The notes under the pieces: model-generated
Database searches by the model: none
What the model saw: the letters and a program-made list of their open reading frames with translations, nothing else
What the model was told of the DNA's origin: nothing
Shown: positions 16,854-63,502 of the stretch, one piece after another
How the letters are laid out: each line of letters begins with the position of its first letter
Numbering within the stretch: the stretch's first letter is position 1
DNA from: Sanguibacter sp. HDW7
Lineage (GTDB): Bacteria; Actinomycetota; Actinomycetes; Actinomycetales; Cellulomonadaceae
Assembly: GCF_011300875.1 (NCBI RefSeq)
Contig: NZ_CP049862.1
Location: 992,001-1,056,000, forward strand
Reading direction: 5' to 3'
DNA length: 64,000 nt
Position numbers and translations under genes: made by a program

Positions 16854-17653
16854 CTGGCGACCTCCCGGATCGTGACGGTGTAGTCCGCGAACACCTCGCG
16901 GTCGGTGATGAGCTGGAGCGTCTCGGCGGGGTCGTCGACGACGACGACGGGCACGCCACGCCCCGACAGCCACACCGGCTCGTGCTCGCCCTCGGTCAGT
17001 CGCAGACCTCCTACCGTCGCCGTGCCGGCAGCAAGCGCGACCTGCACGCCCGTGGCGAGGGCGTCCGGCGTGAACGCGCTCTGACCGCAGAAGGCACCTG
17101 CGGCAGCTGCGGTGGTTACGACTCCGGTCTGGAGCTGTGCGCCCGCCCTGGACAGCGTCCGCCACGCCAGGGCGGTTCCGGCCGTAGACGCCCACGCTGA
17201 CAGCGTGTACGACAGGCCCGCTTGCAGCGGCACTGTCGCCGACCACGCACCCGCCGCGGACGCCTGGACGGCACCGGTGACCGTCTCTACGCCAGACGGC
17301 ATGCCCACGAGCACTACCCCGAGCGAGGACCCGAGTGCGGTCGTCCCCGCGCGACCCGGAGCCGCGACATCACTCGGCAGAAGATTCGTGCGTGCCGCGT
17401 CGTCCGTGTACAGGAACAGGGGCCCCGGCACCGTGCCGTCAGCGCACGCCGCCAGGAACGCGAGGTCTGCCGGCGACAGCAGACGCGCCTGGAGCGTCCA
17501 TGTTCGGGACGATCCAGGCGCGCGCTGCACATACCGCGAGCCGTCGAGTGTCACAAGCTCGTTCGAGGCTCGCGACACCTCTGGAGACACCCCTGGTGCG
17601 ACCGAGGGCATCGACCTGAGTGCCCCGAGCGGGCCCAGCCTTGCGTCACGCAT
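16850..17653 (-). CDS. Distal tail (Dit-like) protein
   Basis: 267 residues, beta-rich. It follows the tape measure and overlaps the tail-tip gene by ATGA, the standard siphovirus place for the distal tail protein. The start FGARRR-like region is replaced by MRDARLGPLGALRSMPSVAP; the end (VVVVDDPAETLQLITDREVFADYTV) resembles the closing strands of Dit proteins. Assignment rests mostly on gene order. Confidence 0.65.
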   Translation of the reverse strand: MRDARLGPLGALRSMPSVAPGVSPEVSRASNELVTLDGSRYVQRAPGSSRTWTLQARLLSPADLAFLAACADGTVPGPLFLYTDDAARTNLLPSDVAAPGRAGTTALGSSLGVVLVGMPSGVETVTGAVQASAAGAWSATVPLQAGLSYTLSAWASTAGTALAWRTLSRAGAQLQTGVVTTAAAAGAFCGQSAFTPDALATGVQVALAAGTATVGGLRLTEGEHEPVWLSGRGVPVVVVDDPAETLQLITDREVFADYTVTIREVAR

Positions 17654-36458: not shown

Positions 36459-36899
36459 TCAGTAGGGCGGCTGGTCGCCGCTGGCGGCCGCGCGGGTGCG
36501 GGTGATGGTGAGGGTGTGGGTGGTGAGGGGGCCGGTGCAGGCGTGGGCGGCGAGGACGATGTGGCGTTCGGGGTGGGCGGGTGTGAGGCGTCGGGCGCTG
36601 TGGGGTGTGCGGTGCCAGAGCTCGTAGCGGCCGGGGGCGCCGTGGAGGGTGTAGGTGGGGCGGCCGAGGATGATGGCGGCGCCTTCGGCTTGCGGTGTGA
36701 GGGGGTTGGGGTCGGTGGTGGCGAGGAAGGCCATGACGTGGGCGTCGAGGCCTTGGAGGGTCCAGCGACCGCAGGTGGGGCATCGGTGGGGTCGGGCTTT
36801 GCCGGTGCCGAGGTGTGGGGGTGCTCCGGTGCGGGTGGTGTAGGCGCGCATCCAGGCGGGCTCGGATGAGGTGGCGGGGTGGTCGAAGAGGGTGGTCAT
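36459..36899 (-). CDS. Early phage protein with CPTC knuckle
   Basis: 146 residues. A CPTCGRW motif near residue 40 and a beta-rich remainder (RYELWHRTPHSARRLTPAHPERHIVLAAHAC). First gene leftward of the GTGAC repeat array. Unknown function. Confidence 0.58.
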   Translation of the reverse strand: MTTLFDHPATSSEPAWMRAYTTRTGAPPHLGTGKARPHRCPTCGRWTLQGLDAHVMAFLATTDPNPLTPQAEGAAIILGRPTYTLHGAPGRYELWHRTPHSARRLTPAHPERHIVLAAHACTGPLTTHTLTITRTRAAASGDQPPY

Positions 36900-36931: not shown

Positions 36932-37130
36932 GTGACGGGTGACGCGTGTTCCGGGTTTGGTCGGCTCACACGGGTGTGTGCGCGCGCGCGTGACGCGTGC
37001 AACTGGAGAGAACCTGTCACCCGTCACAGGCGTCAGTTCAGAAGTCGCGTCACACGTGTCACACCTGCGGAAACGCTGCCTGCATGTGTCACGTTCGGGG
37101 TGTGACACGTGACAGGTGCGACCTGTCACC
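36932..37130. repeat. 199-bp GTGAC-array repeat, copy A
   Basis: Direct, gap-free repeat of 47087-47285, with 160 of 199 positions identical by hand count. It has eleven GTGAC/GTCAC pentamers in mixed orientation, all conserved in place and direction in copy B. The longest shared blocks are GCGTGACGCGTGCAACT, GAGAGAACCTGTCACC and GTGACACGTGACAGGTGCGA. It fills the gap between the primase gene and 36899. A further inverted repeat, GTGACACGTC/GACGTGTCAC (37194-37220), lies in the primase 3' end. Confidence 0.9.
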
Positions 37131-37137
37131 ACGGCGG

Positions 37138-39753
37138 TCACCACCCGTCCGCCAGGGTTGAGGCGACCTCGTCGCGGCCGTCAGCGTCGTCGCGTGACAC
37201 GTCCTCGGATGACGTGTCACGCAGTCGGATGCCGTCGTAGAACCGGGTGGCGCGGGTGCGGGCGGACAGGACGCCGAAGCGTGCGCGGAGCTGCTGGGCG
37301 AACGTCTTGGCGGTGACCGGCTCTTCGCCCTCGACTCGGCACCAGGTCTCGTAGGCGGCCCGGAGGGTGGCGACCTTGACGTGGAGGTGCTGGGCGTTGG
37401 GGTCGCCGGTCTCGCACATCTCTTCGACGAAGCGGGCGACGGTGTCCTGGTCGGCGGCGTAGGCGTCGGTGGCGACGCGGACGGCGGCGGGTTCGGCCAG
37501 GCCGTGGGCGAAGTAGTCGGCCGCCCCCTGGATGAGCCAGCCGAGGATGGCGGGGCCTTCTTCGTCGACGAGCCGGTCCTCGAGGTCGGCGATGCGGGCC
37601 TCGGGCGGGACGGTGTGCTCGAAGGGCAGCATGCGGACGCGGCGCCAGAAGGCGGGGCCGCCGGCGCGGACGTGGGGCTGGTGGTTGGCGAGGAGCCAGA
37701 GGGTGTGGGTGGGCGTGAACGAGAACCAGTCCTGCCGCATGAACCGGCCGGAGATGGTGTCCTTGCCGGTGAGCATCTTGATCTTGGCTTCGGCGAACCG
37801 CTGTCCGTCCTCGAGCTCGGAGGTGATGACGAGGCGTGCGCCGGCGAGGCGGGCGATCTCGGTGGGGTGGCCTTGCTGGGCGGTGGCGAGGAGCATCTCG
37901 GCGGGTGCGCTGATGGAGTAGCCGTCGTCGCCGACGCCGACGATGCGCTGGATGACTCCGGCGAGGGTGGTCTTGCCGTTGGCTCCGGAGCCGTGGGCGA
38001 ACGGGAGGAGCTGTTCGAGGACGACACCGACAAGGGAGACGCCGAGGAGCCTCTGGATGTAGGTGGTGAGGTCGGGGTCTCCGGCGAAGGTGTCGGCGAG
38101 GAACTTGTCCCAGAGGGGGTGGGGTGCGTCCAGGTCGGGGGTGACGGTGGTGGTGCGGGTGTGGAGGGCGGCGGGGTCGGGGGCGGTGAGGGTGGCGGCG
38201 CGGAGGTTGATGACGCCGCCTGGGGTGTTGAGCTCGTAGGGGCGGGCGTCGAGGGCTGCGAGGTGGGTGGCGGTGCGGTGGTCGGTGCGGGCGAGGGCGA
38301 CCATGGCTTCGATGCCGCGGCGGGAGAGGCTGTAGCGGCGGTGCTTCTCGGCGGGCTTGTCGTCGTCGGGGAGGTTGCGGGCGACGGTGCGGGCGAGTTC
38401 GTTGACGTGGCCGGCTTCGTCCCAGCGCCAGCGGGAGCCGGTCCAGGTGAGCCACTGTCCGCGCTGGGGGACGTAGCGGATGTGGTGGCCGTGGGTGTCG
38501 ACAAGGAGGAGGGCGTTGCCGTCGTCAGTGTCGGTGTAGGCGAGCGGCTCAGCGTGCGTGGAACTGCGCGCAGTCGCAGGTGCGGGTGCCGCAGGCGTGG
38601 GGGCCGGTGCGGTCTTCGGCGTGCTGGCACTGGGGGTGTCCGCAGGTGCAGAGGGTGTGGCGGCGGGGGTTGTCGCCGCTCGTGCAGATGCAGATGACGA
38701 TGCCGCAGGTGTGGGCGTCCATGAGGTGTCTCCGTTCGTGGGTGGGATGAGGCCGTCGAGGGATTCGGCGACCTCGTCGGGGATGGGGCGCAGGCGCTCG
38801 CGTCGTTCGCCGAAGCCTGCAGAGTGGAGGGCCTTGGCGGCGGCGGAGTGGTCGCCGCCGTGCTCGAGGACGGCGAGGGCGCCGAGCTTGGTGTACGGGG
38901 TCTCCTGCGCGAAATCCGTGCTCGAGGTGAAGACGTAGAGCCTGTCGCGGTCGTCGGCGTGGCCGGTGGTGGCGGAGAAGCCGGAGCCGAGGGGCTTGCC
39001 AGGGCGCAGCCAGTAGCGTGTGCGGCCGCGGGTGGTGACGTGCGTCCAGCCGTGGGGGGTGAGGATGTCGGTCCAGTCGGTCTTGTTTTCGTAGTCATCG
39101 CCGGGGGTGATGCCCTGGGTGGGGTCGTGCGGCGCGACGGGCGCGCTCGTGGCGGGTGCGCGGTCGGGCTGGGTGTCGAGGGTGCGCAGGAGGTCGTGGA
39201 AGGCCTGGCGCTCGGCGAGGGTGAGCAGGGGTGCGGTGGCAGGTCCGCCGACGAGGCGCTGCCAGGGGCGGCCGGAGGCGTGGTGGCGGGAGGGGGCGAC
39301 GACGACCTGACCGCCTTCGCCGCGGGTCTCGGCCAGGACGAGGCGGTCGTGGTCGCGGGCGAGCTTGAGGTTGCCGGGCACTTCGCCGTCGATGCGGTAG
39401 TGGAAGTGGAAGCCGCCCGACGGGCTCATTTCGGCCCAGCCGGTGGTGACCTTGGTCCAGAGGTCGCCGAGGCCGGTGCCGTCGGCGAGGGCCTTGAGGT
39501 CGGGCAGGCGGTGGGCCGCGCGCCCTTCGATCTCGGTGAGCTCGGCGTTGCCAGAGACGGCCCCCTGGACGACCCCGAGGTCGTAGTCGGTGTCGGTGAA
39601 CCAGCGGCGCACGGCGGGCTCGTCGGGGCGCTGGGTCGTGTACTGCTTCCACGAGGACAGGGCGGGGGCCTTGGTGCCGTCGTTGCGGATGGGGATGACG
39701 GAGTAGCCGTGGGCAAGGAGGTCGAGGGCGGCCTCGAGAATGTCAGCGGCCAC
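37138..39753 (-). CDS. Bifunctional Prim-Pol primase / D5-type helicase
   Basis: 871 residues, the phage replication protein. Residues 1-~190 are an archaeo-eukaryotic-type Prim-Pol (HGYSVIPI, LGVVQGAVSGN, acidic pair Glu74/Glu76 in LTEIEG, and His motif SGGFHFHYR at 113-120). A Pro/Ala/Thr-rich linker (about 345-400) leads to a P4/D5 superfamily III helicase with Walker A GSGANGKTT near residue 590. It would unwind the origin and prime synthesis, handing over to host DNA polymerase III since no phage polymerase is seen. GTG start with AAGGAG upstream. Confidence 0.9.
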   Translation of the reverse strand: MAADILEAALDLLAHGYSVIPIRNDGTKAPALSSWKQYTTQRPDEPAVRRWFTDTDYDLGVVQGAVSGNAELTEIEGRAAHRLPDLKALADGTGLGDLWTKVTTGWAEMSPSGGFHFHYRIDGEVPGNLKLARDHDRLVLAETRGEGGQVVVAPSRHHASGRPWQRLVGGPATAPLLTLAERQAFHDLLRTLDTQPDRAPATSAPVAPHDPTQGITPGDDYENKTDWTDILTPHGWTHVTTRGRTRYWLRPGKPLGSGFSATTGHADDRDRLYVFTSSTDFAQETPYTKLGALAVLEHGGDHSAAAKALHSAGFGERRERLRPIPDEVAESLDGLIPPTNGDTSWTPTPAASSSASARAATTPAATPSAPADTPSASTPKTAPAPTPAAPAPATARSSTHAEPLAYTDTDDGNALLLVDTHGHHIRYVPQRGQWLTWTGSRWRWDEAGHVNELARTVARNLPDDDKPAEKHRRYSLSRRGIEAMVALARTDHRTATHLAALDARPYELNTPGGVINLRAATLTAPDPAALHTRTTTVTPDLDAPHPLWDKFLADTFAGDPDLTTYIQRLLGVSLVGVVLEQLLPFAHGSGANGKTTLAGVIQRIVGVGDDGYSISAPAEMLLATAQQGHPTEIARLAGARLVITSELEDGQRFAEAKIKMLTGKDTISGRFMRQDWFSFTPTHTLWLLANHQPHVRAGGPAFWRRVRMLPFEHTVPPEARIADLEDRLVDEEGPAILGWLIQGAADYFAHGLAEPAAVRVATDAYAADQDTVARFVEEMCETGDPNAQHLHVKVATLRAAYETWCRVEGEEPVTAKTFAQQLRARFGVLSARTRATRFYDGIRLRDTSSEDVSRDDADGRDEVASTLADGW

Positions 39754-40063
39754 CGGAGCGGATCTCCTTCGACTTCACGGCGATGCAACCGGACTGGCTG
39801 CGGACGATGGCCGGGTAGCCCGAATCGGGCCGCGCGGCGGCCTCACGAGCGACGTCCTGCGCGGCGGCGTCTAGTGCGCGCAGCCACCACGTGCCAGCCT
39901 CCGGACCGGCCGACCAGACGCTCCAGCGCCCTTCGACGCGCCAGAGCGAGACGGTTGTGCCGAGCACGGGGGTCGAGCCGCGCGGGGCGAGCATCGCGCT
40001 GCGGTCGCTGGGTGGGAGGTCTCGGACGAGGGCGCCTTCGGCGCGAGTGCGGGTCGTGCTCAT
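39743..40063 (-). CDS. Small early phage protein
   Basis: 106 residues with several Trp (SLWRVEGRWSVWSAGPEAGTWWLRAL), suggesting a small beta domain. Overlaps the primase start by 11 bases. Not recognised. Confidence 0.55.
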   Translation of the reverse strand: MSTTRTRAEGALVRDLPPSDRSAMLAPRGSTPVLGTTVSLWRVEGRWSVWSAGPEAGTWWLRALDAAAQDVAREAAARPDSGYPAIVRSQSGCIAVKSKEIRSGGR

Positions 40064-40160
40064 CTGGTCCTCCAGTGGTGCTCGTGCATGGGTGGTGCGT
40101 GGTCCCCGCGGCCCGGCTCGGACGGGCTGCACACCGGCTGTGGCGTGGGGCGCGTCGCGG

Positions 40161-40904
40161 TCAGGCGGCGCGGATGATGCCGATGACGTCGGGGGTGAGG
40201 CCGGTGGCGGCGGCGATGGAGGTGTCGTCGAGGCCGACAGCGATGAGCTGGCGGGCGAGCGTGCCAGCGTCGGGCGCTGCGGCCGGGGCGGCGGCGGGCG
40301 CGGGGGCCTGCGGTACGGCGATCGGAGCCGCGACGGGCGCGGGCTGCTGCACTGGGGCGGGGGCCTGCTGGACGGGCGCGGGAGCCGCGGCCTGCATGAC
40401 CTGTGCCGCGACCGTCTGCTGCACCGGCGCGGGTGCCTGGACGGGCGCGCCCGCCATGAGCGCCGCGTTCCCGGCGGACTGGTACGCGGCCTGCCAGTAC
40501 TTCCGCGACCGCTTGTCCTGCGGGTCCTCGCGGTGCGTGAACGACACCGTGATCACGCCGCCGGGCTCGAGGCCGGCCGCACCGGCGTTGCGCACGGCGT
40601 CGCGCACGTCGCCCTTGAGATAGCGGCCCTCGATGAAGAGGCGGCGGGTGCCGTCGTCGCCGTCGATGGTGGGGTCGCGCAGGTCGGTGGCGAGGTCGAC
40701 GTAGATCGACATGATCGGGTCGCCGGACGGGTAGGTCTTGAGGGCGCCGCCGCCGGGGTTGTTCGGGTCGTAGTCCCGCTCCTGGTAGACCGACGGCGGG
40801 GCGAGGATGCGGCCGCTGATCGTGTCGCCGGGGTTGGGGAACTTGGCGGAGGGGACGCCGCCGCCTCCCATGAGGACGTCATTGGCGCTGGGCTGGTTCG
40901 TCAT
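40161..40904 (-). CDS. SSB-like replication accessory protein
   Basis: 247 residues. Residues 1-~150 match a common actinobacteriophage protein (LMGGGGVPSAKFPNPGDTISGRILAPP, then DDGTRRLFIEGRYLKGDVRDAVRNAGAAGLEPGG), an OB-like beta fold placed with replication genes and often annotated as single-strand DNA binding. Then an Ala/Pro/Gln-rich flexible stretch and a C-terminal helical piece. It lies between the primase and RecB-like nuclease genes. DNA binding is an inference from context. Confidence 0.6.
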   Translation of the reverse strand: MTNQPSANDVLMGGGGVPSAKFPNPGDTISGRILAPPSVYQERDYDPNNPGGGALKTYPSGDPIMSIYVDLATDLRDPTIDGDDGTRRLFIEGRYLKGDVRDAVRNAGAAGLEPGGVITVSFTHREDPQDKRSRKYWQAAYQSAGNAALMAGAPVQAPAPVQQTVAAQVMQAAAPAPVQQAPAPVQQPAPVAAPIAVPQAPAPAAAPAAAPDAGTLARQLIAVGLDDTSIAAATGLTPDVIGIIRAA

Positions 40905-40930
40905 CTTCGTTCTTCTTCCTGGGTGTGCCG

Positions 40931-41797
40931 TCAGGCGGCGGGGATGAGCCCGGCGAGGGAGTCGACCGGGTCGCGGTGGCCGGGAGCGGTCATGCCGATC
41001 CCATCGGAGTAGCGCGCGCAGTCCCAGCAGCGGGGCGCGCGCGGCAGGCTCGTGATCCACGCGTCACGCGCACCGACGGAGATCGAGGCGAGCGCGAGGA
41101 TGTTCGTGTGCAGCTGGTTGGCGCGCTCCAGGGCGCGCTCGGCGCGGCCGCGGTCGTGCGGCGCGGACCACCAGATCGCGTCGTCGAGGGACTGGGCGTT
41201 CCTGGGCAGGTAGGCGATCGCGACGTGCTCGATGCGGTGCCCGGAGTCGTTCCAGCCCTTGGCGTACAGGTCGGCCTGCACGCGGTACACGGCCGAGGGG
41301 CCGGCCTTCGCGGTGCGCAGGGTGCTGGCCCCGACGACCTTGAAGTCGATGACGGTGCCGGTGACGACGTCGACGAGGTCGGTCGAGCCCCACACCTCCG
41401 TTGCGCCGATGTGTCCGACCATGACCTTCTGCTCGGACAGCCACCGACGTCCGGTGGTGTGCAGGGCGTTGCGGTCGGACTCGTGGAGGTTGAAGACGTC
41501 CTCGCACCACGCATGGACGGCGGTGCCGATGGTGGTGAGCCAAGGGATGCCGCGCTCGGTCTCCTGCCAGCCTGCGAGCTTGGCGGCGAGGCAGTGGTCG
41601 CAGGGGTTGCCGATCTCGGACGGGCCGATGCGCTTCTGCAAGGAGCGCGGGTGGTTGACGATCGCGTTCTCGATGATGGAGCGCACGTCGCGGAGCGACT
41701 GCTTGGGGTCGCCCCCTTCGAACGGCTGGATCCACGGGGGCAGCTCGCTGTAGTCGAACGACGTGGGGTCGTGCTGGTCGGGGACGTGGAGCGTCAT
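40931..41797 (-). CDS. Cas4/RecB-like PD-(D/E)XK exonuclease
   Basis: 288 residues. Nuclease core: His95 (GTAVHAW), Asp140 (GSTDLVD), Asp151-Phe-Lys153 (VIDFK), and a QADLY motif (Gln174, Tyr178), as in the RecB/Cas4 family. Cys66/Cys69 near the start and Cys257/Cys260 near the end are placed as in Fe-S-containing members. It probably processes DNA ends during phage recombination. Overlaps the HNH gene by ATGA. Confidence 0.82.
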   Translation of the reverse strand: MTLHVPDQHDPTSFDYSELPPWIQPFEGGDPKQSLRDVRSIIENAIVNHPRSLQKRIGPSEIGNPCDHCLAAKLAGWQETERGIPWLTTIGTAVHAWCEDVFNLHESDRNALHTTGRRWLSEQKVMVGHIGATEVWGSTDLVDVVTGTVIDFKVVGASTLRTAKAGPSAVYRVQADLYAKGWNDSGHRIEHVAIAYLPRNAQSLDDAIWWSAPHDRGRAERALERANQLHTNILALASISVGARDAWITSLPRAPRCWDCARYSDGIGMTAPGHRDPVDSLAGLIPAA

Positions 41798-42225
41798 CGT
41801 GCGGTCTCCTTCCTGGTTCCGTGGGCGTGTCCTCCGCGGGCCTTGTTGGTCTCGTCGGTGACGGCCTCGAGGTGCTCCGGGTTCGCGCAGCGGCGGTTGC
41901 AGCAGAGGTGGTCGATCACGTAGTCGGTGGGGATCGGGCCGACGTGCTGGACGTACACCCAGCGGTGGACGTAGTGGACGGACTTGCCGATGCCGACGGC
42001 GCCGTACCCGTTGCGCAGGGCGCCGGTCCACTCCCAGCAGCCGGTCTCGGGGTTCGTGATGAGACGCGGGTAGACGCGCTCGGCGACCGTGCGGCCGGGG
42101 CGGCGCGTGTAGCCAGCACTGCCGGTCGTGCCGCTGCGCTTGCGCCGCATGTAGTGCATGCCGCAGAGACCGTGAGCACCCTTGCTGGTGTCCTGGGTGC
42201 AGTCGGTGACGGTGCACGAGCTCAC
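41794..42225 (-). CDS. HNH homing-type endonuclease
   Basis: 143 residues. N-terminal Cys/His knuckle (CTVTDCTQDTSKGAHGLCGMHYMRRK) and an HNH core (YVHRWVYVQHVGPIPTDYVIDHLCCNRRCANPEHLE) with a GCWEWTG lead-in, as in phage HNH_3 nucleases. It may be a homing enzyme embedded in the operon or a packaging/recombination helper. Confidence 0.85.
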   Translation of the reverse strand: MSSCTVTDCTQDTSKGAHGLCGMHYMRRKRSGTTGSAGYTRRPGRTVAERVYPRLITNPETGCWEWTGALRNGYGAVGIGKSVHYVHRWVYVQHVGPIPTDYVIDHLCCNRRCANPEHLEAVTDETNKARGGHAHGTRKETAR

Positions 42226-42482
42226 GGGGTCACCTCCGTGGACAGGTCGAGGCGGGCACCGTCGGTCATGGCGTGGGAGAGGGCGTGGAGCATCCCGGCG
42301 AGGGCGTCGACGGTCTCGTGGGCGTCGTCGCCGACGGCGTTGGTGTGGATGTCGAAGCGGAGGGCGGGGTGCTCGGGGTCCTGGTCGTGCTCGCCGACGA
42401 TGACGACGAACGGCACGTCGTCGGGGATCGTGGGCGGCGTGCGGGCGCCCTTGACGGACGCGGTGATCGCGAGGCCGGACAT
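42222..42482 (-). CDS. Small early phage protein
   Basis: 86 residues, alpha/beta. Overlaps the HNH gene by ATGA. Not recognised. Confidence 0.55.
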   Translation of the reverse strand: MSGLAITASVKGARTPPTIPDDVPFVVIVGEHDQDPEHPALRFDIHTNAVGDDAHETVDALAGMLHALSHAMTDGARLDLSTEVTP

Positions 42483-42483
42483 G

Positions 42484-42852
42484 TCAGCGGACCTCGACGG
42501 TGGGCTTGCCCTGGTCCTGGTACTCGGCGAGCGCGGCGGGCGCGAACTGCTCCTTGACGGCGGCCGTGTCGAGCGCGGCCTTGTACAGGGCCGGGTAGGA
42601 CTCGACGGGGAACGCGGCGGTCAGGCGGCTGGTGGACAGGCGGCGGGCGCCGGCCTTGACGATGACCTTGTAGTCGCCGACGGCGAGCGAGCCGATGGGG
42701 AGGCGGGTGGCGAGGATTGCCTTGATCTCGGCGATGCGGTCGACGTCGGCGGCGATGGCGTCCTGGCGCTTGGCGAGCTCGGCGGCGAGCTGCTCGATGT
42801 CGATGAGGTCGTCGGCGGTGAGCGGGGCGGGGGTGGCGGTGGTGTCGTTCAC
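42484..42852 (-). CDS. Early phage protein, coiled-coil plus small domain
   Basis: 122 residues. A helical N-terminal half (IDIEQLAAELAKRQDAIAADVDRIAEIKAIL) and a C-terminal half (GDYKVIVKAGARRLSTSRLTAAFPVESYPALYKAALD). This two-part pattern recurs in actinobacteriophage early regions, function unknown. GTG start. Confidence 0.6.
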   Translation of the reverse strand: MNDTTATPAPLTADDLIDIEQLAAELAKRQDAIAADVDRIAEIKAILATRLPIGSLAVGDYKVIVKAGARRLSTSRLTAAFPVESYPALYKAALDTAAVKEQFAPAALAEYQDQGKPTVEVR

Positions 42853-42926
42853 GGTGTGCTCCTGGGTGGGCGTGTCGTGGATGGTGCGGGGTGGTGTGTG
42901 GTCGGCGGTGGACGCGCCGGCCACGG

Positions 42927-43655
42927 TCAGGCGGCGGTGCGGGCGCGGGCGCGCACGACGGTGCGAGTCGTGACGCCGAGGCGCTCGGCGATCTCGGCGG
43001 CGGTGTGTCCGCGCTCGGTGAGGTAGCGGACCTGCGCGCGTCGCTCGTTGGTCGTGAACTGCTGGTTCGGGGTGGCGTTCCAGCCGTGCTCGGGCGTCGC
43101 GGTGGGGTCGTCGAGACGGTCGTCGTCCCACGCGAGGGGCGGCGCGTACCTGGCCTCGGCGGCGCGCCTGCGGGTGATCGCAGACGGGCCCGGCCGCATG
43201 GACAGTGCGTCGTACGCGGTGATGATGCGGTCGTGGGTGTCTCGGGCGATCCACGTGCCGCGCTGGTGCATGATGGCGCCGCTGCGACGGGGCGGGAGGC
43301 CCGCGGCCTCGCTGATGTGGATGTGCGTCCAGCCGAGGGCGAGGAGTGCGCTGATGCGGCGGCGTGCGCCGACGTTCGGCACGAATCCGGTGTGGCTCGG
43401 CCGGGTGTGCACCTGGTCGGCGCGCACTGCGAGCACGGCGCGGGCGATGCGCACGCTGGTGCGGTGGGACTTGCGGATGCGGTGGATGGTGGAGAGCTCG
43501 ACGCCGGACAGGTCGGCGATCGCGCCGTAGGTGAGGCCGGCGTCGAGCAGACCCACGATGTGGGTCTTGACCGGCCCTGCGGGGACGGTGCGGATGACGC
43601 CGCGGTCGCGGTCGTACTGCCAGCGCTTGCGGTAGGCGGTCTGGTCGAAGGTCAT
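42927..43655 (-). CDS. DNA-binding protein with several helix-turn-helix units
   Basis: 242 residues. At least three resolvase-like helix-turn-helix segments: residues ~38-60 (LTYGAIADLSGVELSTIHRIR), ~107-128 (HIHISEAAGLPPRRSGAIM) and ~213-236 (HTAAEIAERLGVTTRTVVRARA). Such multi-HTH proteins in phages regulate genes or bind origins. It is the strongest candidate within the phage for binding the GTGAC arrays, purely by inference. Confidence 0.7.
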   Translation of the reverse strand: MTFDQTAYRKRWQYDRDRGVIRTVPAGPVKTHIVGLLDAGLTYGAIADLSGVELSTIHRIRKSHRTSVRIARAVLAVRADQVHTRPSHTGFVPNVGARRRISALLALGWTHIHISEAAGLPPRRSGAIMHQRGTWIARDTHDRIITAYDALSMRPGPSAITRRRAAEARYAPPLAWDDDRLDDPTATPEHGWNATPNQQFTTNERRAQVRYLTERGHTAAEIAERLGVTTRTVVRARARTAA

Positions 43656-44029
43656 CAGGCGGCCCTCCCGGGGATCGAGCCTGTGCGGTGCTGCCCGCGG
43701 TGCATGCGCGCCTGGTACTCAACGTCGCTCTTGACCGTGTTGGCGTACTCCCAGGCGCAGTGCCCGCAGCGGGCGATGCGGCGCGTGCTGGTCGCGTTGG
43801 AGACGGTGACGAGCGGGCGGGCGATGGCGGGGTTCTCGGGCATGAGGGCCTCCTGGGGGATGCCGAGGACGGCGATGAGGTGGCGGGCGTCAGCGACGTC
43901 GCGCGCGCCCGCGGCGACGGTGCGGGCTGCGGCACGCTGCGTGGCGAGGTCGACGCCGTACAGGACGATCGCGGCGTCGACGGACGGGGCGAGCTGCGTC
44001 ATGTCCAGGCCCGTGCGGGTCGCTCTCAT
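43655..44029 (-). CDS. C2H2-type zinc-finger phage protein, paralogue 1
   Basis: 124 residues. The C-terminus has Cys-X2-Cys-X18-His-X3-His (CGHCAW... MHRGQH). The same finger with identical spacing occurs in the protein at 44163, so the two are likely duplicates. Stop and next start overlap (TGATG). Possible DNA or protein binding. Confidence 0.65.
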   Translation of the reverse strand: MRATRTGLDMTQLAPSVDAAIVLYGVDLATQRAAARTVAAGARDVADARHLIAVLGIPQEALMPENPAIARPLVTVSNATSTRRIARCGHCAWEYANTVKSDVEYQARMHRGQHRTGSIPGRAA

Positions 44030-44166
44030 GCGAGGCTCACCGTCCCGTCGGGGTGGACCATGACGGCTTCGCGCGGCACCTCGCCGAGCAGATCGACGAG
44101 CGTGACGTCGAGGGTGTGGCGGTCGCCATCGGACGCCCACGCGATGATCGGGTCGACGTCGCTCAT
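44026..44166 (-). CDS. Very small early phage protein
   Basis: 46 residues (MSDVDPIIAWASDGDRHTLD... VHPDGTVSLA), with ATGA overlaps at both ends that support real translation. Not recognised. Confidence 0.5.
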   Translation of the reverse strand: MSDVDPIIAWASDGDRHTLDVTLVDLLGEVPREAVMVHPDGTVSLA

Positions 44167-44564
44167 CGCGTCCCCTCGATCAGGCCGGCGCGGTGCTGGC
44201 CGCGGTGATAGTTGGCGTGCTCGCGGACGACGACGAGCGCGTCGGAGGAGTACGTCCACGGGCAGTGGGTGCACACGACGCGGTGAGGGGCGCCGTGGGC
44301 TCCGCGCTCGAGGCGGATGACGGGCCGCCCGATGGGGATCGCGGACGGTGCGGTGTCGGGCTGGGGGTCGACGTGCTCGAGCTCGCCCGCCCAGTACGCG
44401 GCGCGCACGGACCCGACGGGGGTGTCGGGGGTGTCGGGGGCGGCTTCGATGATGATGCGCGGGTAGCGGTCGTGCGCCTGGACCTCGACGACGACGCCCT
44501 GCCGGTGGAAGGCCATGCCGGGGCGGGTGCGGACGCGGTCGCCGATCTTGAACGTCGCGCTCAT
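44163..44564 (-). CDS. C2H2-type zinc-finger phage protein, paralogue 2
   Basis: 133 residues. An N-terminal SH3/KOW-like piece (FKIGDRVRTRPGMAFHRQGVVVEVQA) and a C-terminal Cys-X2-Cys-X18-His-X3-His finger (CTHCPW... YHRGQH), matching the protein at 43655. Confidence 0.65.
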   Translation of the reverse strand: MSATFKIGDRVRTRPGMAFHRQGVVVEVQAHDRYPRIIIEAAPDTPDTPVGSVRAAYWAGELEHVDPQPDTAPSAIPIGRPVIRLERGAHGAPHRVVCTHCPWTYSSDALVVVREHANYHRGQHRAGLIEGTR

Positions 44565-44869
44565 GCCGCCACCTCCTCGTCCGCGTCGTCGCGCTCGGCA
44601 GCCGCGAGGTCGGCAAACGTTCCGCCGTCAGGGAAGACGAGCTTGTCGACGTCGATGACGACTCCGGTGACGGCGTGCACGACGTGCGCGGTGCGGGCGG
44701 CCTGGACGGCAAGGTCGGTCTGGATGCCCATGGCGAGGTCGGCGTCGTCGAGCGCGTCGAACGTCAGGCCCGCGAGCGCGCGGGCGTCGGTGGCGCGCTC
44801 GACGACGCCGAGGCCGTAGCCGGCGACGAGCGCGGCGGTCGCGATCGCGACGACGATCCACGGGTTCAT
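44561..44869 (-). CDS. Small membrane-anchored early phage protein
   Basis: 102 residues: N-terminal membrane helix (WIVVAIATAALVAGYGLGVV) and a helical cytoplasmic or external part ending in acidic residues. Overlaps by ATGA on both sides. Confidence 0.6.
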   Translation of the reverse strand: MNPWIVVAIATAALVAGYGLGVVERATDARALAGLTFDALDDADLAMGIQTDLAVQAARTAHVVHAVTGVVIDVDKLVFPDGGTFADLAAAERDDADEEVAA

Positions 44870-45231
44870 CGGTCCGCTCCTGCCCACGCGATGACGAGCG
44901 AGGCGAGCGCGACGATGTCGCCGGTGGCGCCCTTGACGCGGACCCATCCGGCGATGCGCGTCTCGGCGACGTGCACGTCGACGTCGACCGCACCGGGCAC
45001 GACGTCGAGCGCGTGCGTGCCGATCTGCTCGGCGAGGTGCTGCGCGTCGAACTGGTCGAGGTCGTCCAGGCACGTCGCGTCCTCGTGGGTCATCTCGACG
45101 TCGAGGACGTGGCCGCGCTCGCCAGCGAGCACGTCGAACGTCACGCGCACGGTCACCTTGCGGTTCGCGGCTTCGAGGGCGGCGTCGTGGCGCTCGACGT
45201 CGAGCGCGATCGCCATGTCGTGGCGCGTCAT
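44866..45231 (-). CDS. Early phage protein
   Basis: 121 residues, alternating beta strands (KVTVRVTFDVLAGERGHVLDVEM, AVDVDVHVAETRIAGWVRV). Overlaps its neighbours by ATGA. Not recognised. Confidence 0.58.
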   Translation of the reverse strand: MTRHDMAIALDVERHDAALEAANRKVTVRVTFDVLAGERGHVLDVEMTHEDATCLDDLDQFDAQHLAEQIGTHALDVVPGAVDVDVHVAETRIAGWVRVKGATGDIVALASLVIAWAGADR

Positions 45232-45488
45232 GCGGGCTCACCGCCCGTGATCGCACGGACCGACTGGACGTGGGTGGCGCGCTCGTGGATGAGCGCGCGG
45301 ACCCGCAGGCCAGCGCCGACGTGGTGGTGGCGGCCGCGCAGCGGGTCGACGTGGCGGCCGTTGGCGCGGGCGCGGGCGACGAGCTCGGCGGTGCGCTGCT
45401 CGCGGGTGTGGGGTCCGGCGTGGTGGCGGGGCCCGGCCGGGACGAGCGCGAGGAGCGGCGGCTCGTAGGGGTTGCGTCGGGTGCTCAT
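45228..45488 (-). CDS. Small basic early phage protein
   Basis: 86 residues, rich in Arg and His. Last-but-one gene on the promoter side of the leftward early operon, with the terminator hairpin 45514-45549 upstream. Not recognised. Confidence 0.52.
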   Translation of the reverse strand: MSTRRNPYEPPLLALVPAGPRHHAGPHTREQRTAELVARARANGRHVDPLRGRHHHVGAGLRVRALIHERATHVQSVRAITGGEPA

Positions 45489-45513
45489 GGGAGGATGCCT
45501 CTCGTAAGTCGGT

Positions 45514-45549
45514 GAAGCCCGGTTCTGCTTGGTCGTGGGGCCGGGCTTC
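45514..45549 (-). terminator. Hairpin between repressor operon and early operon
   Basis: Stem GAAGCCCGG / CCGGGCTTC with an 18-base loop. It would end the repressor message before the early genes, or be a site of antitermination. Confidence 0.6.
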
Positions 45550-45562
45550 GTCGTGTCTGGGG

Positions 45563-45754
45563 TCAGGCCGCGTCGGCGGTCTGGGTGGCGCGCTGGGCGC
45601 GGATACGGTCCTCGAGCTCGGCGAGCGTGGGACCGGTCGGCGTGTACGCGATCCGCGCGGCTTCCTCGACGGGGAGGGAGTCGCGCAGGGCGTAGGCCTG
45701 GGCGATGGAGGTGCCGGCGGCGGTGATCGCCGCGGTGCGCGTCGTGGCAGCCAC
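45563..45754 (-). CDS. Small helical protein in the repressor operon
   Basis: 63 residues, GTG start one base after the repressor stop, so co-translated. Helical, with TLAELEDRIRAQRATQTADAA at the end. Unknown; possibly a repressor partner. Confidence 0.52.
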   Translation of the reverse strand: MAATTRTAAITAAGTSIAQAYALRDSLPVEEAARIAYTPTGPTLAELEDRIRAQRATQTADAA

Positions 45755-45755
45755 G

Positions 45756-45995
45756 TCAGACCGTCTCCAGCTCGAGGACGAGTGCGGCGAGCGGGACGCC
45801 GAGGGCGTCGGCGGCCTTGCGTGCGAGCTCGGGGGTGAGCGGCTTGCGGCCGGCCTCGATGTTCGCGAGGTACGAGTGCGAGATCTCGAGGGCGGTGGCG
45901 AACGCGCCCTGGCGGATGCCGTAGGCCTCACGCAGGGCCCGCAGGGTGGCTCCGGTGCGCTTTCGTTCCGGTTCGGTGTTCTGCATGTTCCACAT
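45756..45995 (-). CDS. XRE-family phage regulator (leftward)
   Basis: 79 residues, almost only a helix-turn-helix (LRALREAYGIRQGAFATALEISHSYLANIEAGRKPLTPELARKAADALG). A Cro- or repressor-like regulator at the head of the leftward transcripts, divergent from the XRE gene at 46179 over a shared operator region. Met1 or Met4 may start it. Confidence 0.8.
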   Translation of the reverse strand: MWNMQNTEPERKRTGATLRALREAYGIRQGAFATALEISHSYLANIEAGRKPLTPELARKAADALGVPLAALVLELETV

Positions 45996-46078
45996 CGTGC
46001 AGGAACAAGCGGGAACATGTCAAGCGGGGCGGCAGGAACGGAGGCGAACAGATGCGTTTCCGCAGGTCGCGTGGGAAC
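45986..46078. promoter_or_regulatory. Immunity operator region
   Basis: TGTTCC (45986-45991) and GGAACA (46002-46007) form an inverted repeat with a 10-base centre. Further GGAACA (46012-46017) and GGAAC half-sites (46035-46039, 46074-46078) follow between the divergent XRE genes. Repeated half-sites in this place are expected of a phage genetic switch. Confidence 0.6.
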
Positions 46079-46178
46079 CACAGGAAAGTAGTTTCATGCC
46101 TGGTTTTCCGCATCGACGTGCGGGTTCATGCCGCTCGATCGGCTGGTGTTTCTTCCCTCGATCCACCACGCTGGACCT

Positions 46179-46694
46179 GTGAGCGAAAGAGACTGGGCCC
46201 GACTAGGGCGCGAAGTTGTCCATGCGCGCGCACGCACGGGCCTCGACACTTCCAAGGCGCTTGCCGACAAGATGGGCGTCTCGGCGCGCATCGTCGGCGA
46301 GATCGAGAACGGGCGACGCGAGTCCTACAGCACGACCACGATCGCGAAACTCGAACAGGCCCTCGGCTGGGTCGAGGGCAGCGTCTCTGCGGTACTTGCC
46401 GGCAGCGCGCCCACCTCCGTGCGCCCCGCCTACGTCACCGAGCAGGTCGGCAGGCGCAAGGTTGCGATGTACCAACTGCCCGTGTCGGTGCAGGAGGCTA
46501 GTGACGCCGAACTTCTTGCCGAGATCGCGCGACGGTTTGCACGAACGGCTGAGCGCGATCATCGCGAGCCAGTCGGCGGCTTCGATCCCGAGCTCAACCG
46601 GGCGCCCGATCGCGACGACTTCGACCTGGTCGCCGACGACGCCCGCGGCCACGACCACGAGACCGAAGACGAAGACAGGGAGATCGAACCGTGA
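46179..46694 (+). CDS. XRE-family phage repressor (rightward)
   Basis: 171 residues. An N-terminal helix-turn-helix (ARTGLDTSKALADKMGVSARIVGEIENGRRESYSTTTIAKLEQALG) and an acidic C-terminal half with no visible LexA-type Ser-Lys protease or dimerisation domain. Without that domain, induction may depend on the ImmA protein downstream. GTG 46179 places the HTH at the expected distance; an ATG at 46128 is in frame. Overlaps the next gene by GTGA. Confidence 0.75.
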   Translation: MSERDWARLGREVVHARARTGLDTSKALADKMGVSARIVGEIENGRRESYSTTTIAKLEQALGWVEGSVSAVLAGSAPTSVRPAYVTEQVGRRKVAMYQLPVSVQEASDAELLAEIARRFARTAERDHREPVGGFDPELNRAPDRDDFDLVADDARGHDHETEDEDREIEP

Positions 46695-47077
46695 GCGCCC
46701 AGCACCCCGAGGTGGACCTCACCGCCACGAACGCGCCGCGCCCCACCGAGCGTGGATGGCACCCCGATCCGTCAGCGCCTGGCACGGAGCGCTTCTACGA
46801 CGGCACCCGCTGGACTGGCGAGACCCGCGACGCGAGCCCGCGCCCGCTCCGGGGCGGCGGGGTGCCGGTCGGCGTCGGCATCGCCTTCGCGTTCACGGCC
46901 TGCATCTGCGCCGTCATCGGGGCGATCACCTCGGCGCAGGGATACGACGGCGCCCGCGACGCAGCGGGCTGGTTCGTCTTCGCCGGGATCGCTGGCACGG
47001 TCGCGACGATCAACGTCCTGTTCGGCGTGTACCGGATCGCCGAGCAGGTCAACGCGACCTACCTGCGCGGCCAGTAG
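46691..47077 (+). CDS. DUF2510 membrane protein (candidate exclusion protein)
   Basis: 128 residues. DUF2510 motif near the N-terminus (GWHPDPSAPGTERFYDGTRWTGETRD) followed by two membrane helices (about 58-82 and 91-113). It is co-transcribed with the repressor in the lysogenic operon, where superinfection-exclusion proteins are often found. Such a role is inferred. Confidence 0.75.
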   Translation: MSAQHPEVDLTATNAPRPTERGWHPDPSAPGTERFYDGTRWTGETRDASPRPLRGGGVPVGVGIAFAFTACICAVIGAITSAQGYDGARDAAGWFVFAGIAGTVATINVLFGVYRIAEQVNATYLRGQ

Positions 47078-47086
47078 AGACCTCCG

Positions 47087-47285
47087 GTGACAGGTGACAC
47101 GTGTTCCGATGTTGAGCGGCTCACGCCTGTGTACGTGCGCCCGCGTGACGCGTGCAACTAGAGAGAACCTGTCACCTGTCACAGCGCCCAACTGAGAAGA
47201 CGCGTCACACCTGTCACACCTGCAGAAATGCATCCGCGACGCGTCACGATCAGGGCGTGACACGTGACAGGTGCGATCCGTCACC
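47087..47285. repeat. 199-bp GTGAC-array repeat, copy B
   Basis: Partner of copy A (36932-37130), same orientation, no gaps. It fills the gap between the DUF2510 gene and the ImmA-integrase operon and is followed by five more GTGAC/GTCAC motifs to 47375. Confidence 0.9.
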
Positions 47286-47327
47286 GACCGTCCGCGCCAC
47301 CCGCGCAGGCTCGTCGAGTCGGACCGC

Positions 47328-47365
47328 GTGACGGATGCGTGACAGGTGCGTGACGCATCCGTCAC
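47328..47365. repeat. Inverted repeat beside copy B
   Basis: Perfect 12-base arms GTGACGGATGCG / CGCATCCGTCAC separated by 14 bases that contain another GTGAC. It lies just upstream of the ImmA-integrase operon and may be an operator. Confidence 0.75.
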
Positions 47366-47436
47366 GCGTTGTCACACCCATGAGGCATGCTCGACCCATC
47401 ACCACCGCACCGACAGGGAAGAGAGGGTCAGGGCCC

Positions 47437-47832
47437 TTGGACGATCTGCTCGACCACGCGCGACACCTCGGAGTCAACGTCGCCTCCAGGCCGCTCGGCC
47501 GACGCCGAGGCGAGTACCGCCACGCACACCGACTCATCGTCCTCAACAGCCGGATGAGCACGGTGCTCCAGCGGTCCACGCTCGCCCACGAGCTCGGACA
47601 CGCGCACTACGCCGACGTCGCCGTCGACGACCCGCGCACCCACGACATGCAGGAGCGCCGCGCCAACCGCTACGCCGCCCGCCTGCTCATCACCCCGCAC
47701 GCGTACTCGGCCGCCGAGGCCCTCGTCGGCCCGCACCCCGGCGCGCTCGCGCGCGAGCTCGGCGTCGCCCGCTACATCATCGACGCCTGGACACCGCCCA
47801 CGACGCCGTCGCTCCTGCGGGTGATCGCATGA
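47437..47832 (+). CDS. ImmA/IrrE-type zinc peptidase
   Basis: 131 residues. Catalytic LAHELGHAHYAD and the downstream QERRANRYAARLLI ligand segment are intact. ImmA peptidases cleave phage/ICE repressors to switch on excision; here it is next to the integrase gene (ATGA-type overlap) and close to the repressor. TTG 47437 is preferred because the protein then begins at the usual place; ATG 47380 and 47335 are in frame but within the GTGAC array region. Confidence 0.8.
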   Translation: MDDLLDHARHLGVNVASRPLGRRRGEYRHAHRLIVLNSRMSTVLQRSTLAHELGHAHYADVAVDDPRTHDMQERRANRYAARLLITPHAYSAAEALVGPHPGALARELGVARYIIDAWTPPTTPSLLRVIA

Positions 47833-49292
47833 TCCGACCCCGCCCGCGCGCGCTCACGGACACCCCGCCGCGCGCCGTCCTCTACCTGCGCCAGTCCATC
47901 GCGCGCGAGGAGTCCATCAGCCTCGAGCTCCAGGAGCACGCCGGCCGCGAGTACTGCGAGCAGCGCGGCTACGACGTCGTCGCGGTCGAGGCCGACGCAG
48001 GAATCTCCGGGCGCACGTGGGCGCGCCCGGCGGTGCAGCGCGTCATGTCGATGATCGAGGAGTCGCGCGCCGAGGTCATCGTCCTGTGGAAGTGGTCCAG
48101 GCTCTCGCGGTCGCGGCGGGACTGGGCGGTCGCCGCCGACCGCGCCGAGGTCGCCGGCGGACGCATCGAGTCCGCGACCGAACCGATCGACGTCACCACC
48201 TCGGCGGGCCGCTTCGCGCGCGGCGTCATGACCGAGCTCGCCGCCTTCGAGTCCGAGCGCATCGGCGACGTCTGGCGCGAGGTCCACGCCCGCCGCGTCT
48301 CCACCGGCCGCCCCGCCAACGGCCGCCCCCGCTTCGGATACACCTACGACCCCGCCGGCAAGGTCCACCGGCCCGACCCAGTGACGGGGCCCGTGCTCGC
48401 CGACCTGTACCAGCGGTACGTCGGCGGGGAGTCGGTGTACTCCCTCGTGCGCTGGCTCAACGCGTCCGGGTACGAGACGGTGCCGGGGTACACGCCGCCC
48501 GGGTCGACGGGCGCCTGGTCGGAACGCACGCTGCGCCGCGTCCTCGACCGCGGCTTCGGCGCCGGATACTTCACGGTCGGCGACGAGCTGCGTCGCGGCA
48601 TCCACGAGCCGATCATCGACGAGGCGACGTGGGAGGCGTACCAGGTCTCCCGGCAGGAGCGGCGCGTGGAACGGTCCGGGGAGCGATCGCAGTACCTGCT
48701 GTCCGGGCTCGTGCGCTGCGCGTGCGGGGCACGGATGACGGCGGGCCTGCACGGACACGCGCGGGCGGCGAAGATGCGCTGCAAGAAGAACGCCGACGGC
48801 GTGCACGCGGGCGGGTACGTGATGATGCACTTCCTCGAGGCGCACGTCCTGGACTGGCTGCGCGACGTCGCCGCCGAGGTTGACGACGCGACGAGCGCCG
48901 CGAGCGAGGACGTCGCGCACGCGCAGCGGTCGCGCGACCAGGCGCGGTTCCTCGAGCGGGAGATCACCGCGGCACGCGAGGAGCTGCTGCGGGCCACGCG
49001 CGCGCACCTGTCGGGGGTGATCCCGGAGGACGCGTACCTCGTGGTGCGGGGCGAGCTCGAGGAGAAGGTCGCGGGCCTGTCGGGGCGGCTGCTGGCGGCG
49101 CAGGTCGCTGGGCGGAGGGCCCCGGCCCCGCAGGTGGCGGCGTCGCTGCTCGCGGACTGGGAGACGCTGTCGGTGGAGTTGCGGCGCGGGGCGCTCAAGC
49201 AGCTGATCGCGTACGTGCTCGTGAAGCCTGGGCGGCCGCGTGCGGAGATCAGTGTGGTGCCGGTGTGGGAGGGCGAACGCTCGCACGAGTGA
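47829..49292 (+). CDS. int: Large serine integrase
   Basis: 487 residues. Resolvase domain with catalytic Ser23 (YLRQSIAREESISLELQ) and RLSRSRRDW, then the recombinase domain (NGRPRFGYTYDPAGKVHRPD... SERTLRRVLDRGFGAGYF), a zinc ribbon and a coiled coil. The zinc ribbon shows Cys-X-Cys and a third Cys (VRCACGARM... MRCKKN), but the fourth expected Cys is not seen. It catalysed integration into the pilin-like gene. Its TGA stop lies inside the attR core and is also read in attP, so integration does not alter the protein. Confidence 0.95.
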   Translation: MIRPRPRALTDTPPRAVLYLRQSIAREESISLELQEHAGREYCEQRGYDVVAVEADAGISGRTWARPAVQRVMSMIEESRAEVIVLWKWSRLSRSRRDWAVAADRAEVAGGRIESATEPIDVTTSAGRFARGVMTELAAFESERIGDVWREVHARRVSTGRPANGRPRFGYTYDPAGKVHRPDPVTGPVLADLYQRYVGGESVYSLVRWLNASGYETVPGYTPPGSTGAWSERTLRRVLDRGFGAGYFTVGDELRRGIHEPIIDEATWEAYQVSRQERRVERSGERSQYLLSGLVRCACGARMTAGLHGHARAAKMRCKKNADGVHAGGYVMMHFLEAHVLDWLRDVAAEVDDATSAASEDVAHAQRSRDQARFLEREITAAREELLRATRAHLSGVIPEDAYLVVRGELEEKVAGLSGRLLAAQVAGRRAPAPQVAASLLADWETLSVELRRGALKQLIAYVLVKPGRPRAEISVVPVWEGERSHE

Positions 49293-51107: not shown

Positions 51108-52328
51108 ATGGGGAGCAGGGATGAGGGTGGCCGCGGACGCCTGCGTGCGGCGCGACTCTCCGCCGCAGGGCTGAGCCTCGTGCTGCTCGGAGGTTGCGCG
51201 GCGCTCGAGGTGCCGCCGGAGGACCTGCCAGCCTCGGGCACCGCCACCACGCCGACGTCGGGCGGGTCGACGTCTGACGGCGAGGCGGGCGGGCGCGTGC
51301 CGGACGACGTCGCGACGAGCCTCAGCACGGGCGCGGGCGGCGCGGACATGGACCCTGGAGGCACGGTCCCCGGCGGCTCCGCGACACCCGACGCCGAAGG
51401 CTCGGGCGGTGCCGCTCCCGACGATGCGACGCCCGACGCCGAGAGCCCCGACGGGTCGGTCGGCACCGACGTCCCTATGGACGAGCCCAGCGACGACCCC
51501 ACGACCGGCGGCACCTCGACGACGACGGCGGCCGCCGCGCTCGGCGAGCTCAAGGTCAAGGGCCGCGCTCCGAAGACCGGCTACGACCGCGACGCGTTCC
51601 GCTACCGTGCGGTCGATCTCGACCGCAACGGCTGCGACACCCGCAACGACATCCTGCGGCGCGACCTCACGGACGTCACGCTCAAGCCCGGCACCCACGG
51701 CTGCGTCGTCGAGTCCGGCGTGCTCGCCGACCCGTACTCTGCGCTCCGCATCGACTTCACGCGCGGCACAGCGACGTCGAACGACGTGCAGATCGACCAC
51801 GTCGTCGCGCTCTCGGACGCGTGGCAGAAGGGCGCGCAGCGCTGGTCCCAGGACACGCTCGCGCAGTTCGGCAACGACCCGCTCAACCTCCTTGCCGTCG
51901 ACGGTCCCCTCAACCAGCTGAAGAGCGACGGCGACGCCGCGACGTGGCTGCCGCCAAGCAAGCAGTTCCGCTGCCAGTACGTCGCCCGCCAGATCGCGGT
52001 CAAGCACGCGTACGGCCTATGGGTGACGGCCGCGGAGAAGGCTGCGATGGAGCGCGTCCTCGGGTCGTGCGCGAACGAGCCGCTGCCGACGGACGACTCC
52101 GTCGTCCGCGTCGTCGTCCTCGGCGACAAGCCGACCGAGAAGCCTGCCGACAAGCCCGCTGGCAAGCCCACGCAGAAGCCGTCCGCGAAGGACGACCTTG
52201 ATCCCGACTACGGGACGTGCAAGGAGGCCATCCGCCACGGCGCCGGCCCGTACTACCGTGACCGCGACCCCGAGTACTACTTCTACCGCGACGGTGACGG
52301 CGACGGGATCACCTGCGAACGACCGTAG
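51108..52328 (+). CDS. Secreted lipoprotein nuclease, HNH (DUF1524-like) plus excalibur domain
   Basis: 406 residues. Lipobox LLGGC with the lipidated Cys at 30, a Pro/Thr/Gly-rich disordered stretch (40-145), then a nuclease domain (about 150-320) of the GmrSD/DUF1524 HNH kind: DRNGCDTRND and IDHVVALSDAWQKGA, with NDPLNLLAVDGPLNQLKSD. A Lys-Pro linker leads to a C-terminal excalibur calcium-binding domain (CKEAIRHGAGPYYRD... DRDGDG ITC-type). An exported, surface-anchored DNase or RNase, probably for nutrient use or defence. Confidence 0.88.
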   Translation: MGSRDEGGRGRLRAARLSAAGLSLVLLGGCAALEVPPEDLPASGTATTPTSGGSTSDGEAGGRVPDDVATSLSTGAGGADMDPGGTVPGGSATPDAEGSGGAAPDDATPDAESPDGSVGTDVPMDEPSDDPTTGGTSTTTAAAALGELKVKGRAPKTGYDRDAFRYRAVDLDRNGCDTRNDILRRDLTDVTLKPGTHGCVVESGVLADPYSALRIDFTRGTATSNDVQIDHVVALSDAWQKGAQRWSQDTLAQFGNDPLNLLAVDGPLNQLKSDGDAATWLPPSKQFRCQYVARQIAVKHAYGLWVTAAEKAAMERVLGSCANEPLPTDDSVVRVVVLGDKPTEKPADKPAGKPTQKPSAKDDLDPDYGTCKEAIRHGAGPYYRDRDPEYYFYRDGDGDGITCERP

Positions 52329-63138: not shown

Positions 63139-63190
63139 GCCGGCTTCCCCTCGCCCGAAGAGGGCGGGGCGCCAATCGTCGGGAGGTGAA

Positions 63191-63502
63191 GTGGCTCGAT
63201 AGCCCATCCGTGCGCGCGACGCGCATGGATCGGCTATCGAACGAAGGAGCTCGAGGGACGAGGTTCGTCGATAGCAGATCGTTGCACGTGAGGCGTACGG
63301 ATCGCCTATCGAGCGAGGCTGGCGGTCGGGGGAGGTGGACGGATCGGCTATCGAGCGAGCGCGGTGGTCGAACGCGGCGCGTCGATAGCAGGCTCGTCGG
63401 CGGTAGGCGCACGGATCGGCTATCGGACCACTAGGTGCGATGGGTCGTGCGCGTCGATCGGCGTGTCGGACCCTTGTGGTGCATCGATCGGCTACCGGGC
63501 CG
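63191..63502. repeat. Cluster of palindromic repeats
   Basis: About nine ~24-base elements around GGATCGGCTATCGA, alternating in orientation: inverted near 63191, 63264 and 63378; direct near 63221, 63293, 63335 and 63407; weaker copies near 63448 and 63479. Neighbouring opposite copies form imperfect hairpins with ~20-base arms. No gene is seen from 63024 to 63543. It is probably a REP/BIME-like cluster. Confidence 0.75.

Follow-up and report, generated by a model that had tools for sequence, protein, structure and literature searches.

Two arrays in a Sanguibacter prophage

The window analyzed here, a stretch of 64,000 nucleotides from contig NZ_CP049862.1 of Sanguibacter sp. HDW7, carries a prophage with two 199-bp arrays of GTGAC/GTCAC pentamers, A and B, spaced 10.2 kb apart. 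Array A (36932..37130, minus strand), the proposed replication origin, is intergenic and lies in a leftward replication operon, the last large gene of which encodes a Prim-Pol/D5 primase-helicase (37138..39753, minus strand; Pfam Prim-Pol, 4e-13, and D5_N, 3e-31; PHROG DNA polymerase/primase, 2e-153) that we propose to be the initiator. The array occupies the 238-bp gap from the primase stop (37138) to the next gene, and the orientation of its unit follows that of the primase gene. A small conserved gene (36459..36899, minus strand; phrog_16156 and phrog_10480), with tblastn matches in relatives, comes after the putative origin in many of them.

Array B (47087..47285, minus strand), the proposed auxiliary origin or initiator-bound site, belongs to an immunity/integration module in which the order is an XRE-type regulator that is probably the repressor (46128..46694; Pfam HTH_3, 2e-5), a DUF2510 protein that is the left neighbor of B (46691..47077; Pfam, 2e-9), array B, an ImmA/IrrE-type metalloprotease that is its right neighbor (47335..47832; Peptidase_M78, 5e-13; true start probably near 47437), and a large serine recombinase, the integrase (47829..49292; start approximate; 52% identical to that of locus L013). 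All four genes are on the plus strand. An ORF with an HExxH motif adjoins the B-type copy in relatives of this phage as well. The gene directions are those given in an earlier, sequence-only reading of this DNA, with A inside a leftward operon and B between two rightward genes.

That reading had described A and B as direct repeats without gaps, identical at 160 of 199 bases, and realignment gave the same result. Random pairs of 199-bp segments within the window have 59 ± 8 bases in common, with a maximum of 97 among about 200,000 pairs. The eleven pentamers, which were also correctly described as having the same place and direction in both copies, are conserved in 55 of 55 bases, versus 105 of 144 (73%) for the remaining bases (hypergeometric P = 6e-7). 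Pentamers of other types that recur in A are often missing from B; for example, none of the seven occurrences of CGCGC is kept. Only 0.6 GTGAC/GTCAC pentamers would be expected per 199 bp of the window, compared with the 11 present in each copy. Overall, B is under constraint at its motif bases.

Additional motifs noted in the same reading are present outside both arrays. At 37194..37220, within the 3' end of the primase gene, there is an inverted pair, and several relatives show a comparable pair. At 47328..47375, upstream of immA, B is extended by five further GTGAC/GTCAC motifs. No third copy of the array was found in the 3.35-Mb genome.

Anatomy of the repeated unit

The inner 96 bp of A (36932..37027) and of B (47087..47182), both on the minus strand, constitute a unit that recurs in many other phages. 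They score 76.9 and 76.7 bits, respectively, with a covariance model of the unit (R1), of whose training set both are members. The TGAC-type unit is 81 to 100 bp long and consists of two direct RTGAC iterons, a short and less GC-rich spacer, a core, and two inverted iterons. The core is a run of alternating purines and pyrimidines, e.g., TACGCGCGCGCACGCGTA; in A it comprises 19 such bases (GTGTGTGCGCGCGCGCGTG; 36974..36992), the longest run of this kind in a 30-kb stretch. The core coincides with the longest alternating purine/pyrimidine tract of the entire locus in 35 of 56 loci, versus 2.4 expected.

The outer iteron bases change together on the two sides (G-C 16, A-T 15), as would be expected if one protein reads every copy. 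The consensus helix from RNAalifold consists of these outer iteron pairs only. Folding of single sequences predicts the inner hairpin, which lacks covariation support; thus, our claim is limited to a potential for hairpin formation. The spacer, with a GC content of 52% versus 68% for the loci, is the sole less GC-rich part of the unit.

A CGCAGGT box is found ahead of the first iteron pair in 21 of 56 loci, versus 3.4 expected. It is common to phages with differing iterons, including Adephagia, and can be seen, for example, on the reverse strand of A in the window and in L013, L024, and L033.

The array 3' of the initiator gene in relatives

Related loci were collected from IMG/VR (15 with a related initiator, followed by 80 found by alignment query, with partial overlap) and supplemented with named Arthrobacter and Mycobacterium phages. 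Of 77 related loci, the records of which may be incomplete, 63 have a significant array of short repeats immediately 3' of the initiator gene. In 47 of 72 loci, no other 250-bp segment of the entire locus, which can be up to about 29 kb long, is as rich in repeats as this array. The iteron itself varies by phage, with GTGACA, GCGTCA, TCGGTCA, GGTGGCA, GCCACCC, AACTGGG, AGCGACC, and GCACAGAT among the forms found. The last of these is repeated at the place of A in Adephagia, a cluster K mycobacteriophage, and the complete genomes of the Arthrobacter phages Peas and RootBeer have two adjacent units there.

Some loci depart from this arrangement or have unusual records. In L065, a unit lies beside ImmA (2807-2899), there is no array directly 3' of the initiator, and weak matches to the unit are found about 4.8 to 5 kb further on (about 17300-17650). 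Genome G052 contains three copies of one origin and initiator region (L127, L128, and L129; C1 4134186, 4172518, and 12973), two of them 38.3 kb apart and near the ends of a single contig, which could represent a tandem prophage or an assembly effect. The contigs of L012, L014, and L021 begin with about 230 bases of short tandem repeats (e.g., GTCCGGGCGTACGGCTCGGCCACC in L014) that are possibly assembly artifacts.

The proposed initiator and its putative recognition of the iterons

Among 57 nonredundant loci, similarity of the iterons follows similarity of the initiator C terminus (residues 755 to 845; rho = 0.47) more closely than that of the helicase (0.26) or of the primase domain (0.13). 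The partial correlation for the C terminus given the helicase is 0.41 (P = 0.002), and those for the helicase or the primase domain given the C terminus are about -0.03. An AlphaFold2 model of the C terminus is a winged helix. When 998 chains were realigned to it, the model matched RFX DNA-binding domains (Z scores of 10.0 and 9.2) and then the P4 origin-binding domain 1ka8 (Z = 8.2, 77 residues, root mean square deviation of 2.6); next came the C-terminal portion of a different full-length Prim-Pol. On the basis of this covariation and predicted fold, we propose that the C-terminal winged-helix domain (37219..37491, minus strand) is the reader of the iterons. The initiator profile also has a match (E value of 4e-13) in PDB chain 7ola, an entry listed as DNA primase that we take to be the SaPI5 enzyme.

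In L029 (9323-12508) and in G467 (L142/L143), a Prim-Pol N terminus is joined to an AAA_25-type helicase that replaces D5. The iterons of these two lie inside the 3' end of the AAA_25 helicase gene and are unrelated to TGAC.

Distant second copies

A plain DNA search with the 199-bp repeat against 200 genomes of the family returned short, chance-like matches only, and the R1 model was therefore needed. With it, distant copies were found in eleven phages and prophages: those of the window, L011, L013, L024, L034, L037, and L040, which are included in the R1 training set, and those of L015, G009, G052, and Demequina flava, for which the distal copies of L015 and D. flava as well as G009 and G052 lie outside it. 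R1 performs best for the TGAC type, and distal iterons of other types could be missed beyond the ±10 kb that was scanned with locus-specific motifs.

In each of the eleven same-contig pairs, the two copies share their orientation and are 9.3 to 12.9 kb apart on the circle. Distal copies occupy different places: some lie 5' of immA, others between that gene and the integrase, and still others next to att or within the head-tail genes. In D. flava (L025/L139), a 36.2-kb prophage is delimited by a 25-bp attachment repeat (379867 and 416089) located at the 3' end of a tRNA-Leu gene; the distal copy is just inside the attachment site and would be 11.2 kb from the first copy on the excised circle. 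An exact-repeat search for the attachment sites of the window prophage found none. Distal iterons match the proximal iterons of their own phage (permutation P ≤ 5e-5 for 12 pairs, three or four of which are mutually related and one of which, in G105, spans two contigs).

Proposed roles of A and B

These results make it very likely that A is a replication origin and quite likely that its initiator also binds B. We infer binding, initiation, and the role of B from patterns in the sequences. The Prim-Pol/D5 helicase would bind the RTGAC iterons of A through its C-terminal winged-helix domain, melt or extrude the central hairpin tract, load itself as the helicase, and prime. In the immunity/integration module, about 10 kb away, B would be bound by the same initiator and may act in one of three ways. 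It could be a second start site; it could, as proposed for oriR of SPP1, be a place where the bound initiator stalls forks coming from A and switches replication toward concatemers; or it could be a looping partner like crr of P4. The combined reading, in which A is an iteron-type lytic origin and B is a second copy for the same initiator that serves as a start site, fork barrier, or looping partner, appears likely. Among the candidates put forward in the sequence-only reading, an iteron-type origin has held up, strongly for A and well for B, and a partition site and an operator array have not. That reading also raised recombination between the two repeats, which is not needed to explain them.

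Several observations weigh against this interpretation. A conventional AT-rich unwinding element is absent from the unit, and GC skew tracks gene direction only and gives no sign of an origin. Because the array lies next to the 3' end of the initiator gene, physical linkage could account for part of the correlation between the iterons and the initiator C terminus. L024 and L034 have distal iterons that do not resemble the proximal iterons of the same phage, and TGAC-type distal arrays are retained in G467 and the L029/G078 prophage despite changed initiators, which suggests that some distal copies may be relics or may bind something else. Many relatives are also without a distant copy. The sequence-only reading had named, as findings that would speak against it, relatives that do without one copy and motif positions no better conserved than their surroundings. 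The first was found in part, in that Peas and RootBeer form plaques with the A-side array only, which indicates that the pair is not obligatory.

The absence of a distant copy from many relatives, and the misfit between distal iterons and initiator in the four cases above, would also suit a B that is a relic or passenger origin copy left by module exchange and functionless in most phages. However, 55 of 55 motif bases are kept in the window versus 73% elsewhere (P = 6e-7), most pairs carry the iteron of their own phage (P ≤ 5e-5), and one orientation and a similar spacing are maintained at several genomic places, so that we consider a functionless B unlikely. The TGAC arrays that persist in two prophages with a changed initiator of their own could instead indicate a decoy that titrates initiator and thereby limits the copy number of its own phage or hampers incoming relatives with TGAC iterons. 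An origin supplied in trans is known to confer phage resistance in the case of streptococcal phage Sfi21. Most distal copies, however, match the resident initiator, which would be titrated too, and a decoy function seems improbable.

Other explanations concern both arrays. Long operators for the phage repressor or for the multi-HTH protein (42927-43655), controlling the genes on both sides, would fit with the place of B between genes of the immunity operon and with the HTH proteins encoded nearby. However, the array follows the initiator gene and not a promoter arrangement, B-type copies may be 5' or 3' of immA or among head-tail genes, and a hairpin core with inverted iterons is unexpected in a row of operators. 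The multi-HTH protein is encoded in only a few array-bearing relatives, and it was rejected as the binder because it is missing from most array-bearing loci. Operators appear quite improbable. Arrays of repeated motifs, as A and B are, are also typical of parS/parC loci, but partition (centromere-like) sites are the least plausible of these explanations and very improbable: the reading was rejected because ParA/ParB families were not found among 20 scanned replication and immunity ORFs, the prophage, which has a serine integrase gene, is integrated, and in relatives the array is linked to the initiator gene.

Comparison with known systems

The sequence-only reading knew of no described element of this form, but comparable designs have been published for SaPI/SCCmec (PMC7581432), pRN1 (PMC4234260), and SPP1 (PMC3485210, PMC6316719). 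In SaPI/SCCmec elements, an iteron origin lies just downstream of the helicase gene (Rep or Cch2), and the C-terminal domain of SaPI Rep recognizes the repeats (PMC7581432). The likeness lies in short repeats directly downstream of the gene for a self-loading helicase, which is of the D5 type in Cch2 and SaPI5. Both the place of the array directly downstream of the initiator-helicase gene and a phage-specific short repeat in multiple copies were found here. An AT-rich region between the iterons was not found, and the core is instead a GC-rich alternating tract. The system described here also differs in its fused Prim-Pol, in the alternating purine/pyrimidine hairpin core, and in a possible second full copy about 10 kb away.

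P4 has two separate sites with the same repeats, ori and crr. It resembles the window prophage in combining one primase-helicase with two sites of the same repeats, and the predicted fold of the initiator C terminus is like that of its origin-binding domain. The P4 repeats are bound by a winged-helix domain, and the alpha primase belongs to the Toprim type (PMC4234260), whereas the primase here is an archaeo-eukaryotic Prim-Pol (E value of 4e-13). Judging from the genomes, a need for both sites is not general in this phage family, since relatives without the distant copy exist. The origin of pRN1 is a stem-loop 3' of an AEP-SF3-winged-helix replication gene (PMC4234260). It is similar in that a hairpin-forming element of about 100 bp lies immediately 3' of a gene whose domains come in the same order, but pRN1 has a single site and no iterons.

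In SPP1, two origins, oriL and oriR, lie 12 to 13 kb apart, in the initiator gene and in the late region, and initiator bound at the second origin has been proposed to stall forks and thereby set off the synthesis of concatemers (PMC3485210, PMC6316719). The two similarly built sites and their spacing are comparable to those reported here, and several relatives have the distal copy among head-tail genes. However, SPP1 uses a separate initiator, a loader, a DnaB-type helicase, and AT-rich unwinding elements, in contrast to the Prim-Pol/D5 fusion. The pair is best read as this kind of design in another initiator family; the system of the window would work like that of SPP1 without being a member of its class.

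A more general proposal, which we regard as tentative and rather doubtful, is that temperate actinophages with Prim-Pol/D5 initiators often have two complete origins of the same orientation, about a quarter to a third of the circle apart and placed independently at several sites, with the distal one used for second initiation or as a concatemer-switching fork barrier and with a Z-DNA-prone alternating tract replacing the AT-rich element in these GC-rich genomes.

The replication systems of mycobacteriophages are not well characterized for lytic growth (PMC7157519). The initiator described here matches 635 phage records at an E value of ≤1e-30, including cluster K mycobacteriophages such as Adephagia. 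Our analysis predicts the lytic origin and the iteron for a large initiator family, points to the domain expected to read the iterons, and opens the role of a second, distant origin to tests in laboratory strains.

Other observations in the window

Just outside the prophage, positions 51108 to 52328 (plus strand) encode a predicted protein with GmrSD C-terminal-type and Excalibur domains. Near the tmRNA gene, the hexamer CGATAG occurs six times within 220 bp (63181-63400).

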